Shown here piece after piece: positions 6,053 to 13,338 of a DNA stretch of 40,852 bases (position 1 is the stretch's first letter; every line of letters begins with the position of its first letter). Under the pieces are notes generated by a model. The model made no database searches, had not been told where the DNA came from, and was given only the letters and a program-made list of their open reading frames with translations. Origin of the DNA: an uncultured Treponema sp. (GTDB lineage Bacteria; Spirochaetota; Spirochaetia; Treponematales; Treponemataceae); contig CAMWTK010000016.1 in NCBI GenBank assembly GCA_947177175.1, positions 1-40,852 on the forward strand, read 5' to 3'. A program made the position numbers and the translations under genes.

Positions 6053-6868
6053 CTATTTCGCCACGCCTTTTTTCTTTTCCGCGTCCAGCTTGTCCTTCCA
6101 CACCTGCGCCTTGCTCTTGAGTTTTTCCGCGTCCTCCGCCTCGCTCAAGGCAATGCAGATACGCCGCTCGGCAAGCACGAACTGAATGGCGAGCCGCAAG
6201 TCGTCCACGCGGTGCGTCGAAAGCTCGTATTTGTCGCGGTGCTGCGTGGCAGACTGGTCGAGCAGCTTGCGCACCAGGCGGATATAATGCATCGTGCTGT
6301 CAAATTCAGGAAGCGATGAGTCAAAATAGACTTTGCCCGCCTGTTTCCAGTCAAGGAGATTTTTGGTCACCACGGCAGCCCGCCCATGAATCTCAATGAA
6401 TGACATCTTCCATTTTGAATTTTCGCCGAACGCCTCTTCCAGCAGCTGAATCGTCAACCCCAACTTGCGCACCAGATAATAGCGTTTTTCCACTGAGAGG
6501 GCGGCGATTTTTTCGACCTTATCCTCAATTTCGCTGTACCCGACATCAACGACCGGCGTCACGATTTCTTCCAGATAAATAATCGACTTATAGATGATTT
6601 TCCGCGCGTCGTTCAGGGCATCGTTGTTTTTGGCGTTAATCATTTCCACCGACAGATTGTTAATCTGCATATAATCCGCAGCAATCGACAGCATATCCTC
6701 GCTCAGCTGGATTTTTTTGTACGGCAGCTGCGATTCGTCCTCATGAATTCCCGCAAGCACCGCTTTTTCCGCGGCAATCGCCTGCTTGATACGCTCCTGA
6801 TACGGCTTGCACTTTTCCCTGAACAGTTCCCGGTCTTCAACTTTGACTTTTCTGCTTACGATTGCCAT
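6053..6868 (-). CDS. Conserved treponemal-type helical protein
   Basis: Not recognised by function. A GTG at 6874 overlaps the recN stop, but ATG 6868 is preferred because GGAG lies 7 bp upstream of it; the product is 271 residues. It is cytoplasmic and almost entirely helical, with charged helices (REKCKPYQERIKQAIAAEKAV, then LRLAIQFVLAERRICIALSEAEDAE) and a basic tail EKKKGVAK. It has no signal peptide or membrane segment. Its fixed place between recN and the HD gene in a treponeme-like cluster suggests a conserved spirochaete protein, but I cannot name a family. A structural or scaffold role would fit the helical make-up, as a guess only. Confidence 0.7.
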   Translation of the reverse strand: MAIVSRKVKVEDRELFREKCKPYQERIKQAIAAEKAVLAGIHEDESQLPYKKIQLSEDMLSIAADYMQINNLSVEMINAKNNDALNDARKIIYKSIIYLEEIVTPVVDVGYSEIEDKVEKIAALSVEKRYYLVRKLGLTIQLLEEAFGENSKWKMSFIEIHGRAAVVTKNLLDWKQAGKVYFDSSLPEFDSTMHYIRLVRKLLDQSATQHRDKYELSTHRVDDLRLAIQFVLAERRICIALSEAEDAEKLKSKAQVWKDKLDAEKKKGVAK

Positions 6869-6870
6869 GG

Positions 6871-8616
6871 TCACGCTCCAAAACGCTGCAACATTGAACG
6901 CGCGTGCTCCAACGACTCCGCGCTGTCAGAATCGCCGCTCAACATACGGGCAATTTCCTGCACGCGCGCGTCGGCGGCAATCGGGAAGACACGGGTTTGC
7001 GTCGCGCCTGCGTTCATGCCTTTTTCAATTTTCACTTGATTATCGGCACAGACCGCAATGCTCGCAAGATGCGTAATGCACAAAACCTGCCGATTTTTCG
7101 CCAGTTTTTTCAAATGCGTGCCGACGCTCACGGCAACTTCGCCGCCAATGCCCGTGTCGATTTCGTCAAAAACAAGCGTCTGCACGGGATCGCTCCCGGC
7201 AAGAATCGTCTTGAGCGCGAGCATCACGCGGCTCAGCTCGCCGCCGCTCGCAATCTTCGCAAGCCCGCGCAACGGCTCGCCACTGTTCGCACTGATGAGG
7301 AATTCGATATTGTCAATGCCGTACGGCCCGCATTTCTGCTCCAGCTCCGTCCCGTTTTTTTCCACAATGCTGACCGAAAAGCGCGTGCCTTTCATGCCGA
7401 GCTGCGACAGCACCTGCTCCACGCCCTGCGCCATTGCGGCGGCGGCAGTCTTCCGCTCAGCACTGATTGCCTTTGCCTCGGCGTAGACGCGTTTCTCAAG
7501 CGCGGCGATTTCTGAGCGCAACTGCTCTTTTCCCGCCGCGCCGCCCACAATCGAATCGAACTGCCGCTGCGCATTTTCGGCATAGGCAATCACGTCCTCG
7601 ACGGGTGCGCTCACGGATGCCGCATATTTTTTCTTGAGATTATAGATGAGCGTCAGCCGCTCCTGCACCTGCGCGAGCCGGTCGGGGTCAAAGACCAAGC
7701 CATGCTCATAATGCTTGTATTCGCCCGCAATGTCGTCCAGCTCATAAAACGCGGTCTCCAACCGCTGCTGCAATGCCTCCAGCGACTTGTCCAAAGCGCA
7801 CGCATGCTGCGCCGTGCCGCGAATCCGCTTGAGCAGCCCGACCACCCCCTCACCGCCCGCGTCCAACGCGGCATTCAGCGACGTGATGTCGGCATAGAGT
7901 TTCTCAAAGGACGACAGCTTGGTCTCCTCGTCGTCCAACGCCTTGTCCTCGCCCGCCTTCAGCTTTGCGTCGGTAATTTCTTTGATCGCAAACGTCAGCA
8001 TTTCGATTTTCTGCGCGCGCCCCGCATCGTCCGCATCCAGTTCGTCAAGCCGCTTGCGCTTCGCGACCAAATCGGCATACAACGCCGTAAACGCCGACAC
8101 GCGCTCATGCAATCCCGCAAACGAATCCAAAAAACGCCGGTGCTCGGTCACTTTCATCAGCGACTGATGTTCGTGCTGCCCGTGAATATCCACCAAAAAC
8201 GCGCTGAACGCCGCCAAATCCGCGCGCGTGACCGCCGTATCGCCAATCCATGCGCCTGTCTTGCCGTTGTCGCGCACATAGCGGCGCAGCAGGATTCGGT
8301 TGTCCTCCGCCGCAATGCCGTGGCGGAACAGCCATTCCGCCGCGCTCCGGCATTCGTCATCATCCTGCGCCATTGAGTCCGCTTGCAACGCCGCCTCACG
8401 CCCGTCAAGCAGGAACGTCCCACTCACGGTCGCCTCATGGCATCCCGCGCGAATCTGTTCCGTGCCGCTTTTGCCGCCGAGCAGAAAGGAAAGCGCACCG
8501 ATCAGCAACGACTTTCCCGCACCGGTCTCGCCCGAAAGCACCGTAAAACCGTGCGAAAATTCGATATGCGCGTCGTCAATCAGGGCAAAATCCTTGATAT
8601 GCAAATCTTCAAGCAA
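6871..8616 (-). CDS. recN: DNA repair ATPase RecN
   Basis: An SMC-like ATPase of 581 residues that acts early in double-strand break repair. Walker A is GETGAGKS (29-36) near the N-terminus. A long coiled-coil middle has the RecN zipper region. The C-terminal ABC signature and Walker B region read IASGGELSRVMLALK and TLVFDEIDTGIGG, followed by VLCITHLASIAVCAD. Length is normal for the family. Translation starts at TTG 8616, supported by GGGAGG about 8 bp upstream. The first 8 bp overlap the end of nadK and the stop overlaps the next gene, so the genes are translationally packed. recN next to nadK is a common bacterial arrangement. Confidence 0.97.
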   Translation of the reverse strand: MLEDLHIKDFALIDDAHIEFSHGFTVLSGETGAGKSLLIGALSFLLGGKSGTEQIRAGCHEATVSGTFLLDGREAALQADSMAQDDDECRSAAEWLFRHGIAAEDNRILLRRYVRDNGKTGAWIGDTAVTRADLAAFSAFLVDIHGQHEHQSLMKVTEHRRFLDSFAGLHERVSAFTALYADLVAKRKRLDELDADDAGRAQKIEMLTFAIKEITDAKLKAGEDKALDDEETKLSSFEKLYADITSLNAALDAGGEGVVGLLKRIRGTAQHACALDKSLEALQQRLETAFYELDDIAGEYKHYEHGLVFDPDRLAQVQERLTLIYNLKKKYAASVSAPVEDVIAYAENAQRQFDSIVGGAAGKEQLRSEIAALEKRVYAEAKAISAERKTAAAAMAQGVEQVLSQLGMKGTRFSVSIVEKNGTELEQKCGPYGIDNIEFLISANSGEPLRGLAKIASGGELSRVMLALKTILAGSDPVQTLVFDEIDTGIGGEVAVSVGTHLKKLAKNRQVLCITHLASIAVCADNQVKIEKGMNAGATQTRVFPIAADARVQEIARMLSGDSDSAESLEHARSMLQRFGA

Positions 8617-9463
8617 ACGAAGGACCTCCCGACCAGTTCAGTTTTGAGCGCAACGCCTGATAGAATTTTTCCGACGTGCAGCCGACCAAACGCGCCCGGT
8701 CATTCGTCCGGCGGATTTTGATAATGTCGCCAACGTGCAGATTCACGGGAATCTGTCCGTCCACGGTAATCGTCACCTCGCTCGTGCGCGACGGCAGAAT
8801 GGTAATGCCGATTTCCCCCAGCGGGCTGAGCACAATCGGACGGCTCGAAAGCGAAAACGCGTTCATAAGCGTCAGCACGAGCGCGTCCAGATCGGGGTCG
8901 ATAATCGGTCCGCCCGCGCTCGCCGAATACGCCGTGCTTCCCGTCGCCGTCGCAATGATAATGCCGTCCGCCTTGAATTCGCCGAGCGGAATATTGTCGT
9001 ACGTAATGTCAAAAGAAATCGTCCGCGCGGCATTCTTCGCGCTGATAACGATGTCATTCAGCCCCGTCTGATTGAAGCGGTTCGCATTGCCGCGCACCAA
9101 CGCCGCCTTTATCATCGACCGCTCGGCAACAATTGATTTTCCCGCAAGAAAACGGTCAAGCTCACGCTGCCAGTCGGGCTTCTGCACGCTCGCAATAAAC
9201 CCGAACGTCCCGAAATTGACGGGAAAAATCGGAATGCCCAACGCCGCACAGCCCCGCGCCGCAAACAGCACCGTGCCGTCGCCGCCGAGCGTAACCACAA
9301 AATCGTAATCATGGAACGGATTTTCCTCGCCGAACCCGTTGTACAAAAAAATATCGCCGTGCTTTCCCAAGGATTCCAAATATTCCTTGATCGTCACGCC
9401 CATTTTCCTCGATTCTTCTTTATAGGTGTTCACGATGATAAGCGCTTTGTTCAATTCTTTCAT
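8609..9463 (-). CDS. nadK: NAD kinase
   Basis: A 284-residue ATP/polyphosphate-dependent NAD kinase that makes NADP. The hallmark GGDGTVLFAARG lies at about 60-71. The second glycine-rich motif TATGSTAYSASAGGPIIDP and the NAD-site LNDIVIS (position of the usual NE/ND pair) are present, as is the C-terminal TVDGQIPVNLHVGD. Length is normal. The start has a near-perfect GGAGGAGAC just before ATG 9463. It overlaps recN by 8 bp, so the two are co-expressed. Nothing unusual is seen. Confidence 0.97.
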   Translation of the reverse strand: MKELNKALIIVNTYKEESRKMGVTIKEYLESLGKHGDIFLYNGFGEENPFHDYDFVVTLGGDGTVLFAARGCAALGIPIFPVNFGTFGFIASVQKPDWQRELDRFLAGKSIVAERSMIKAALVRGNANRFNQTGLNDIVISAKNAARTISFDITYDNIPLGEFKADGIIIATATGSTAYSASAGGPIIDPDLDALVLTLMNAFSLSSRPIVLSPLGEIGITILPSRTSEVTITVDGQIPVNLHVGDIIKIRRTNDRARLVGCTSEKFYQALRSKLNWSGGPSFA

Positions 9464-9508: not shown

Positions 9509-10582
9509 CTACGGAAGCGTTCCCAGCACTTTGACGATATTCGCCACCGCTTCGCTCCCCAGCCGCGGATACAGCGGGAACAACGCCGTGCGCAGGAACA
9601 ACGACTTCGCCTTCTTGCACGTGCCGGAAAGCTCCTCGTCCTTGCACGCAATCACGGAATCCTCATACGCCGGGCGGATTTCGATATTCTTGCGAGCCGC
9701 GTACTGCTTCGCGTCCTTAAAACTGCCCGCAAGCACCACGGGAAACGACCAAATCGTCGAGCCGTCGCCATGCTCACGCGCAAAAGTACGATTCTTTCCG
9801 CCCAAAAGCGCGTGCTGAAAACTCGCGTAAATCGTCTTGCGAATGTCCTCGTTGCGCCGGAATTCCTTTATCTGCACGAACGCAAGCGCACTGTTGATGT
9901 CGGGAAGCATATCCGTGCGCGGCGCATTGTCCGCAACATTTTTGAGCGCGCTCCATTCACGGCGGCGCGGCGCGAGCAACAGCGCACCGCCGCCGGCCGT
10001 AATCGTGTCGAATTCCTCCAATCCCATAATGGCATACACCCCAAACGAACCGGCAAGCCGACGCTTCTGCACGTCCTTCCCCTGCGCCTCGGAATCCCCG
10101 TCCTCTTTCGGCACGACCGCCGCGCCCACCGAATGGGAAATATCCTCAATCATCGGAACGCCAAGCGCGGCAATTTGCTCCACATTGGGCAGAATACCCA
10201 TCGTCTCATGCAACAGCAGCAGCCGTCCGCCCGCCTTCATGCCTTCCGCCACGATTTCTGCGGTCACCAGCCCGGTCTCTTCGCTCACGTCCAAAACGAG
10301 CGGCGTATACCCCAGCCGCTCGACCGCGCTGTATTGCCAGCTCGGCGCAAGCGCAGAAAGCATGACCAGGCTTCCGGCGGGCAAATCCAATGCCTTGAGC
10401 GCGTATGCCAACGCGACCATCGCACTGCGGAACGCAACCGCGCCGTCACAGCCCGTCATTTCCTTTACCGCCTGCACGAGACGCGCGTTCAACTCGCCCG
10501 GACCAGTCCGCTCATCGACCATACAGGTGAGCACGGCATCCATTTCCTTTCTGCGAATCGTAGAACTGAATGTCTGAATCAT
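9509..10582 (-). CDS. DegT/DnrJ-like aminotransferase fold, Schiff-base Lys absent
   Basis: A 357-residue protein with the fold-type I pattern of sugar aminotransferases. It has GCDGAVAFRSAMVALAYALK near the start, PMIEDISHSVGAAV (the cofactor-holding ExxH region) and the C-terminal LPDINSALAFVQIKEFRR. The motif that should read like SFHPTKxITTGEGG instead reads GVYAIMGLEEFDTITAGGGA, with no lysine. Without that lysine normal PLP transamination is not expected; the protein may be a non-catalytic relative or use altered chemistry. It lies between cheW and nadK, 45 bp before nadK. A PLP-independent role is inference. Confidence 0.75.
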   Translation of the reverse strand: MIQTFSSTIRRKEMDAVLTCMVDERTGPGELNARLVQAVKEMTGCDGAVAFRSAMVALAYALKALDLPAGSLVMLSALAPSWQYSAVERLGYTPLVLDVSEETGLVTAEIVAEGMKAGGRLLLLHETMGILPNVEQIAALGVPMIEDISHSVGAAVVPKEDGDSEAQGKDVQKRRLAGSFGVYAIMGLEEFDTITAGGGALLLAPRRREWSALKNVADNAPRTDMLPDINSALAFVQIKEFRRNEDIRKTIYASFQHALLGGKNRTFAREHGDGSTIWSFPVVLAGSFKDAKQYAARKNIEIRPAYEDSVIACKDEELSGTCKKAKSLFLRTALFPLYPRLGSEAVANIVKVLGTLP

Positions 10583-10609: not shown

Positions 10610-11104
10610 TTATTCTTCTTCAGGGTCTGTGCCGCCGTTCATAATCTTCTGCAATTCCCTTGCGCTGAAGATTTTCCGAATATCAAGCATAATCAGGTAA
10701 CTGGAATCCCGGCGGACGACACCGTTGATGTATTCCGTACCGATACCGCTGATCATCTGCGGCGGCGGCTTAATCTCATCCTTATTTATCGTCACGACAC
10801 GGGCAACGCGGTCAATAATAATCCCCGCTTTCATACCGTCAATGTTCAGAATGATAAAACCGCCCTCAAATTCCATGCCGTCCTCATCAACGGCCATTTT
10901 TTTGATGCCAAAGCGCCGGTGCAGGTTGATGACGGGAATAATCTCACTACGAAGATTGAAAATACCCTCAACATAATAAGGCGCATTCGGAATAGGACGC
11001 ACCGCCATCACCTTGACGATTTCCTTTACGTCCATGATGTCCACGCCATATATTTCCTCGCCAAGCTGAAAGGTTACCTGTTGAGTCTGCGTATTTTCTG
11101 CCAT
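10610..11104 (-). CDS. cheW: Chemotaxis coupling protein CheW
   Basis: A 164-residue single-domain CheW that links chemoreceptors to the kinase CheA. The core reads VTFQLGEEIYGVDIMDVKEIV, then PNAPYYVEGIFNLRSEIIPVINLHRRFG, with the receptor/CheA-facing RSEIIPVI segment intact. The frame is open further upstream, but ATG 11104 has GGAGGA directly before it and lies 16 bp after the predicted transcription start. It is the first gene of the run that continues into the DegT-like gene, nadK and recN. No cheA or receptor gene is in view, so this is a dispersed cheW copy, as is known in treponemes. Confidence 0.96.
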   Translation of the reverse strand: MAENTQTQQVTFQLGEEIYGVDIMDVKEIVKVMAVRPIPNAPYYVEGIFNLRSEIIPVINLHRRFGIKKMAVDEDGMEFEGGFIILNIDGMKAGIIIDRVARVVTINKDEIKPPPQMISGIGTEYINGVVRRDSSYLIMLDIRKIFSARELQKIMNGGTDPEEE

Positions 11105-11126
11105 AATTCCTCCAATGCGATTTATT

Positions 11127-11155
11127 AGAATACACCGAAAAACGGTAAAATACAA
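11127..11155 (-). promoter_or_regulatory. Predicted sigma-70 promoter of cheW
   Basis: Read on the minus strand: -35 box TTGTAT (11155-11150), 17-bp spacer, -10 box TATTCT (11132-11127). The predicted transcript start near 11120 leaves a leader of about 16 bases that still contains the GGAGGA ribosome site. Spacing and boxes are good but not perfect. Confidence 0.5.
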
Positions 11156-12588: not shown

Positions 12589-13338
12589 TCAATCAACTGC
12601 AAAAAGCGTGAGCGCGTACACCTTTTTTACCCCGAACCGCTTCAGCTGCGCCGCGCAGGATTCAATGGTTGCGCCCGTCGTCATCACGTCGTCAACGAGC
12701 ACGACTGCCGGCGGCGGCATGGAACAAAGTTTCCGCAACTGGCGCGGCGGCTTGAGCACATACGCGCAATCCGACATGTCGAGCCGCCGCACGCGCCCGA
12801 GTTTTTTCTGCTGCACGCGCGTCGTCCGCTCCAGCAACGGCAAAACCACATAATGATGGCGGCGGCGGAGCAGACGGCACAACTCGTCAATCTGATCCCA
12901 ACCACGCGCACGGATTTTTCCCGGGCGCGGCGGCACGGGAACGAGCGGCACGCCAGAACCGATGACCGGCTCCAGCTGGCGCAACGCGGCAGCACACATC
13001 CGCGCGAAAACCGCCGACATCGTGCGCCGGTTTTCCATTTTCCAGGCGAACAGTACCGATTTTTTCCATAACTGATACGCATGGAGCGGAAAAACGCCGT
13101 CGGTCGATCGCAGAACGGGAGCATTCCTGCATGAGGAACACGTGCCGATTTCGCTCAACAGCACTTTTCCGCAAATCAGGCAGCGCGAAACCGCCGGGTC
13201 AGCGAACGATGTCCAGGACTGCGTAAACAGCCGCAGGCACGTCGGGCACAAAGGATACGCGAACGACGGTTTTCCGCAGCGGACGCAGTTGTCGCCCCCA
13301 AAAAGAGCGGCGCACACAAAACGAATGAAACGAATCAT
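12589..13338 (-). CDS. comFC: ComFC/GntX-family phosphoribosyltransferase
   Basis: A 249-residue protein with an N-terminal zinc ribbon (CVRC ... CPTC, then CLICG ... CSSC) and a phosphoribosyltransferase domain ending in the PRPP-binding loop VVLVDDVMTTGAT. The SLLRRRHH-like middle and RPLKKLGRVRRL-type segment (TTRVQQKKLGRVRRL) are typical of ComF. In naturally competent bacteria ComFC helps take up DNA; elsewhere the role is unclear. It is located directly downstream of mutS on the same strand with a 78-bp gap. Its own ribosome site is weak. The family is certain, the function in a spirochaete uncertain. Confidence 0.88.
   Translation of the reverse strand: MIRFIRFVCAALFGGDNCVRCGKPSFAYPLCPTCLRLFTQSWTSFADPAVSRCLICGKVLLSEIGTCSSCRNAPVLRSTDGVFPLHAYQLWKKSVLFAWKMENRRTMSAVFARMCAAALRQLEPVIGSGVPLVPVPPRPGKIRARGWDQIDELCRLLRRRHHYVVLPLLERTTRVQQKKLGRVRRLDMSDCAYVLKPPRQLRKLCSMPPPAVVLVDDVMTTGATIESCAAQLKRFGVKKVYALTLFAVD

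Follow-up and report, generated by a model that had tools for sequence, protein, structure and literature searches.

ColD and the CDP-sugar E1 dehydrase work by a PMP mechanism in which a histidine stands in for the lysine, and SPTLC1 is an inactive subunit that is paired with SPTLC2. The cofactor site of the fold has been described for Spr1654; in the available part of that study, the contacts are an aspartate to N1, a histidine to O3', an aromatic residue on the ring, and a serine and a threonine to the phosphate (PMC5936713). The same part of the text mentions a glutamate conserved among sugar aminotransferases, a conserved histidine in a cis bond, and a histidine and a lysine or asparagine that contact the amino donor, and it states that active sites of this fold draw residues from both subunits (PMC5936713).

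The window analysed here, a stretch of 40,852 nucleotides of contig CAMWTK010000016.1 from an uncultured Treponema sp., contains a DegT-like gene from whose product a first-pass annotation had reported the PLP lysine to be missing. We compared the protein with its homologues at the cofactor site, and the gene with its neighbours across Spirochaetota genomes.

Fold and lysine site of the protein encoded at 9509-10582

The open reading frame at 9509-10582 on the minus strand starts with ATG and encodes a protein of 357 amino acids, which reads GLEEFDTITAGGGALLL; the motif at the lysine site is EEFDTITAGGGA. Residues 9-352 match Pfam family PF01041 (DegT_DnrJ_EryC1) with 69.2 bits against a cut-off of 19.8 (E 4.9e-19), and six NCBIfam models were also matched, all with scores far under their cut-offs. 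An AlphaFold2 model built with 65 relatives had a mean pLDDT of 90.4. ArnB was the top structural match in both Foldseek (E 1.6e-24) and VIA-align, and alignment with ArnB entry 8sng by VIA-align gave a Z score of 39.7 over 338 residues with an rmsd of 2.6 and 20% identity. Since the Pfam coverage, the model and the structural match agree, the protein has the DegT fold end to end. Its Pfam family name would make it an aminotransferase, a name that the cofactor site contradicts (see below).

The closest named record, among the best 80 of 426 relatives, is a Treponema MAG protein with 97% identity. In Treponema pallidum the gene is presumably TP0440. This fits the available part of PMC4403809, in which TPASS_0441 is a NAD kinase. 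A search of the open-access PMC literature found no title or abstract opening on this DegT-like protein.

The residue register was taken from a profile built on 45 homologues and matched to PDB sequences, with ArnB numbering counted by hand on the alignment. In this register D192 (codon 10007-10009, minus strand) aligns with the Schiff-base lysine of ArnB, Lys188, and E189 aligns with His185. Reading by eye had left F191 or D192 as the residue facing the lysine; the profile alignment settled on D192. For the column counts a joint alignment was made of 119 family rows and 17 ordinary DegT proteins as controls. The family rows comprised 62 from the order of the window (the window included), 24 others from its class and 33 from the phylum outside the class. 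Of the controls, one is encoded in the genome of the window itself, and eight further genomes within the phylum supplied the remaining 16. The column is confirmed as the lysine site because 14 of the 17 controls have lysine there and the other three histidine.

None of the 86 rows of the order and class (62 + 24, the window included) has a lysine at this position: 54 have aspartate, 14 serine, eight glycine, five asparagine and five other residues. Lysine occurs in three and arginine in five of the 33 rows from the rest of the phylum, so that three of the 119 family rows carry the lysine, none of them from the class of the window, and one carries histidine. No lysine was found at the site in an initial motif alignment of 59 members of the order either, and the motifs printed for 79 related-locus copies (from the best 80 of 426 relatives) have aspartate or asparagine. 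These counts bear out the first-pass annotation both in its main claim and in setting this case apart from the histidine-bearing dehydratases. A lysine conserved in the relatives, which would point to a local change or a sequence error, is absent from all 86 members. The annotation had also raised the question of another lysine near the cofactor site: none of the lysine columns is shared by all 86 rows, the best candidate in the alignment being K297 (69/86).

Remodelling of the cofactor site and family history

The loss extends beyond the lysine. The aspartate that contacts the pyridine nitrogen, D147 in the window protein (codon 10142-10144, minus strand; ArnB D160; role according to the available part of PMC5936713), is kept in 85 of the 86 order and class rows versus 17 of 17 controls, and it is the only cofactor contact fully kept in these rows. 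A histidine or glutamine at the O3' contact is present in 57/86 versus 13/17, the phosphate threonine or serine in 10/86 versus 14/17, and the second phosphate serine in 18/86 versus 17/17. No member retains the aromatic PLP contact, which all 17 controls have; its place (ArnB W89) is taken in the window protein by P80 (codon 10343-10345, minus strand), as judged from the alignment counts and from the role given in the available part of PMC5936713. The family glutamate or aspartate is kept in 1/86 versus 14/17, the donor-side lysine or asparagine in 0/86 versus 15/17, and the cis-histidine in 0/86 versus 11/17. On average, of seven cofactor contacts 1.99 are kept in the 86 rows, 3.00 in the 33 phylum rows and 6.50 in the 14 lysine-bearing controls. 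All 62 rows of the order have an aromatic residue at position 82, two places on from the lost one, and in the alignment this residue may be a partial replacement for it.

Several other residues are near-invariant in the order and class and absent from the corresponding places in all 17 controls: R11 (86/86), R52 (85/86), E189 (85/86) and N230 (84/86). By profile alignment, E189 (codon 10016-10018, minus strand) occupies the place of ArnB His185, the donor histidine, where the 86 rows have glutamate in 85 cases and aspartate in one. R52 (codon 10427-10429, minus strand) falls in the same register at ArnB Ser61, immediately ahead of the turn that binds the phosphate. Taking into account that R52 and E189 occur together in 84 of the 86 rows, and that both are missing from the remaining 33 rows of the phylum and from the 17 ordinary DegT proteins, the pair seems to have arisen once, at or close to the stem of the class, rather than by repeated covariation.

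Quick tree searches were run on 95 rows, 78 from the family and the 17 controls. The branch that separates family from controls had a support of 99, and of 100 when the motif columns were left out. Eight rows with lysine or arginine at the site branch near the base (support 90 in the quick tree). In the tree without the motif columns, the remaining 70 rows require two changes on the free tree, and their grouping into one clade was not rejected (p-AU 0.62). For lysine versus other residues, three changes were counted within the family rows and five over all rows, counts that do not distinguish gain from loss. Given lysine as the ancestral state, this pattern fits loss of the lysine on more than one occasion. 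Arginine takes the place of the PLP lysine in a sister branch (SLSATRMITSGG; L076, L078, L081, L090 and L095), and a near relative of that branch, L098, still has the lysine (SFSATKMITSGG). The genomes with the arginine form appear to be Brachyspira relatives, and judging from their motifs this branch probably represents a separate loss. With lysine, then arginine, then aspartate, serine or glycine, the family offers a graded series for tracing how a PLP site is lost.

Distribution, selection and gene order

All 59 relatives, a set that counts the genome of the window itself, have a match. At E <= 1e-10 the same is true of 95 of the 149 genomes of the phylum, and 40 new ones of these 95 entered the comparison. 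At E <= 1e-8, 165 of 198 class genomes had a match, 156 of them at 1.3e-40 or better; the nine weaker matches, eight with E between 4e-9 and 9e-14 and one with 7e-28, may represent different DegT proteins. The survey covers Spirochaetota genomes. Copies lie in one frame in 58 of the 59 relatives, and no stop was seen inside any of the matches listed. Two copies, both in draft genomes, are broken: that of G051 is split over two frames and that of G236 has one internal stop. Found in every relative sampled and in most of the class genomes surveyed, the gene also persists in an open frame in a reduced genome of 1.14 Mb (G114). A suspected frame break near the C-terminus of this copy was rejected, the frame being open with an inserted stretch before the C-terminus. 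The copy at L061, apparently from a T. pallidum-like genome, contains a long insert that keeps the reading frame and lies a little ahead of the conserved C-terminus.

Pairwise dN/dS values (NG86) of the window gene were 0.146, 0.047, 0.054 and 0.107 against the near relatives L101, L102, L103 and L104, respectively, with dS above 2 for the L102 and L103 comparisons; YN00 gave 0.079 for L101 and 0.076 for L104. The gene is under purifying selection. With open frames and NG86 values between 0.05 and 0.15, the view of the first-pass annotation that the gene is not obviously decaying holds. Decay of the window gene, and of the family as a whole, is excluded. The idea that the missing lysine reflects a sequencing error or local decay, for which nothing speaks in the window and only the two broken copies elsewhere (G051, G236), can be set aside as having practically no chance of being right, given the absence of lysine from all 86 rows, including all 59 of the initial motif alignment, and the low dN/dS.

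All the neighbours considered here are on the minus strand. The next gene downstream (8609-9463) is nadK, coding for NAD kinase, identified by PF20143 and PF01513 and by its adjacency; it is followed by the DNA repair gene recN (6871-8616; PF02463 and synteny) and by a gene for a 273-aa protein (6053-6874), which belongs to the same conserved gene order, as its homologues follow recN in many loci. The 273-aa protein has no Pfam match at E 1e-5. It also follows recN in many of the other class loci that are long enough, and is a conserved spirochaete protein. Upstream lies cheW (10610-11155; PF01584 and synteny), which holds this place in most of the order. The protein encoded at 12589-13338 of the window resembles ComF, with a phosphoribosyltransferase-like end (VLVDDVMTTGAT), but has no Pfam match at E 1e-5.

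Among loci with enough sequence, the gene is followed by nadK in 49 of 49 from the order, in 79 of 79 named ones (from the best 80 of 426 relatives) and in 24 of 24 from elsewhere in the class. The locus sets L001-L062 and L100-L179 probably share genomes and were therefore counted apart. Estimated median distances between the two genes, extrapolated from tblastn ends, were 10 bp in the order, 6 bp in the named loci (best 80 of 426 relatives) and 12.5 bp in the other class loci. A cheW gene precedes in 47/48 loci of the order and in 78/78 named loci (best 80 of 426 relatives), and in 9/21 other class loci. Among 12 loci of f51, a family without FliM in its genomes and at a guess Sphaerochaeta-like, nadK follows in 12/12 and cheW precedes in 0/9. 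Thus, in the class it is nadK, and not cheW, that is constant as a neighbour.

This arrangement is rarer outside the class, with nadK next in only 6 of 29 loci, and a comparison at the level of open reading frames found nadK in eight of those loci. In four loci of family f7 (L229, L230, L231 and L232), from genomes that we infer to be Borrelia-like, cheW adjoins nadK without the DegT-like gene; the frames of the two genes share a few bases in L230, and in three of the four loci recN comes after nadK. Two f50 loci, L227 and L234, likewise have cheW and then directly nadK, as at the empty f7 site. Also outside the class, a PTPS/QueD-like gene stands directly after the homologue in eight loci (L066, L075, L077, L082, L086, L087, L092 and L096), an identity confirmed by Pfam in three of the eight, and RsmE-, WecG- and hexapeptide-type neighbours occur in five loci, of which one was checked by Pfam.

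Long frames in some genomes had raised the possibility of a fusion between the gene and nadK; one candidate, in G312, read at the level of open reading frames, proved to be separate genes. A link to motility does not hold, as a match is present in 26 f51 genomes, all without FliM, and 26 f7 genomes have FliM and no match. The queuosine link suggested by the PTPS/QueD-like neighbour is not supported: of 198 class genomes, 87 have PTPS and 191 TGT, both are missing from G114 although it has the gene, and 24 of 26 f7 genomes have TGT without the gene.

Proposed function and comparison with known systems

Judging from the residues at the site, it is very likely that the protein does not act as a PLP aminotransferase through a Schiff base. 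That this spirochaete branch of the DegT fold gave up such chemistry and was kept for another job we consider probable. A remodelled, cofactor-free pocket is the most economical and the most likely reading. Like its relatives, the protein would be a dimer; R52 and E189 would sit in the old cofactor pocket and reshape it, and the pocket would then hold a different, probably anionic ligand and no covalent cofactor. Against a PLP-free protein speaks the retention of the pyridine-nitrogen aspartate in 85/86 rows, for which the need is not obvious, together with the histidine or glutamine at O3' (57/86), the second phosphate serine (18/86) and the aromatic residue at position 82 (62/62).

As the gene pair with nadK is a constant feature in the class, an accessory or regulatory role in NADP metabolism might be added, as a weaker step. 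That the protein is a non-catalytic accessory or regulator of this kind is a tentative suggestion, which we would not expect to be right as it stands. The same reserve applies to the wider picture of a phylum-old, PLP-free sensor or enzyme, made together with NAD kinase and tuning the NADP supply of spirochaetes; no description of such a function for a sugar aminotransferase fold was found in the open-access PMC literature. The Borrelia-like genomes, which keep nadK without the gene, and the 6/29 loci outside the class count against the NADP role, and because of the former the product cannot be an obligate subunit everywhere. The defined gene pair makes the new function directly testable there.

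Among the alternatives, a new enzymatic chemistry without cofactor, in the old pocket and by way of R52, E189, D147 and N230, is possible but on the whole rather unlikely. Several of the residues gained are charged or polar and near-invariant throughout the class, and a passive scaffold would not need so many. However, no neighbouring pathway hints at a substrate, the constant neighbours being housekeeping genes, and that the four residues meet in one site is a conjecture from the alignment.

Non-covalent binding of PLP or PMP, in a cofactor-assisted enzyme that lacks the lysine as do the histidine-bearing ColD and CDP-sugar E1 dehydrase, is unlikely. The fold is intact according to the AlphaFold2 model and the ArnB match, D147 is near-invariant, histidine or glutamine at position 150 is common, and the structural matches include the sugar dehydrases 3bcx and 3b8x, which have histidine at the site. 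However, neither a histidine nor any other base is conserved at the site in the class, where the residue varies as counted above, and the aromatic residue, the phosphate threonine, the family glutamate and the cis-histidine on the sugar side are gone or nearly so. The kept aspartate leaves room for a PMP-type dehydrase, which is less likely because neither the histidine nor most of the cofactor contacts are present.

That the protein is the inactive partner subunit of a lysine-bearing aminotransferase, in the manner of SPTLC1 and SPTLC2, appears improbable. The active sites of the fold use both subunits, as stated in the available part of PMC5936713, and some genomes, including G114 and that of the window, also hold an ordinary DegT protein. 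However, six of seven f51 genomes tested (G229, G256, G300, G311, G336 and G354), the genomes being 94-99% complete and partial matches to other aminotransferases existing, have no other match covering most of PF01041, and obligate pairing with an ordinary DegT protein is thus not supported; a partner from another aminotransferase family is conceivable. Of the seven genomes, all but G300 were also examined for the missing lysine.

Compared with ArnB (8sng), the window protein has the same fold over its full length and keeps the pyridine-nitrogen aspartate and the O3'-contact histidine, but it lacks the Schiff-base lysine, the aromatic residue of the Trp89 type, the phosphate Thr64 and Glu194; His185 is changed to glutamate, and Lys241 and the cis-histidine are replaced. 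With ColD and the CDP-4-keto-6-deoxyglucose-3-dehydrase E1 (3b8x, 3bcx and 3bb8; the mutants H188N and H220K appear in the titles of 3b8x and 3bb8) it shares a DegT fold without the Schiff-base lysine. Those enzymes carry histidine at the site, whereas the class studied here has mostly aspartate, serine, glycine or asparagine and has also lost most of the cofactor contacts. Like subunits of the SPTLC1 type, it is a fold-type-I protein that lacks the PLP lysine and is kept by selection, but some of its lineages show no lysine-bearing DegT protein with which it could pair.
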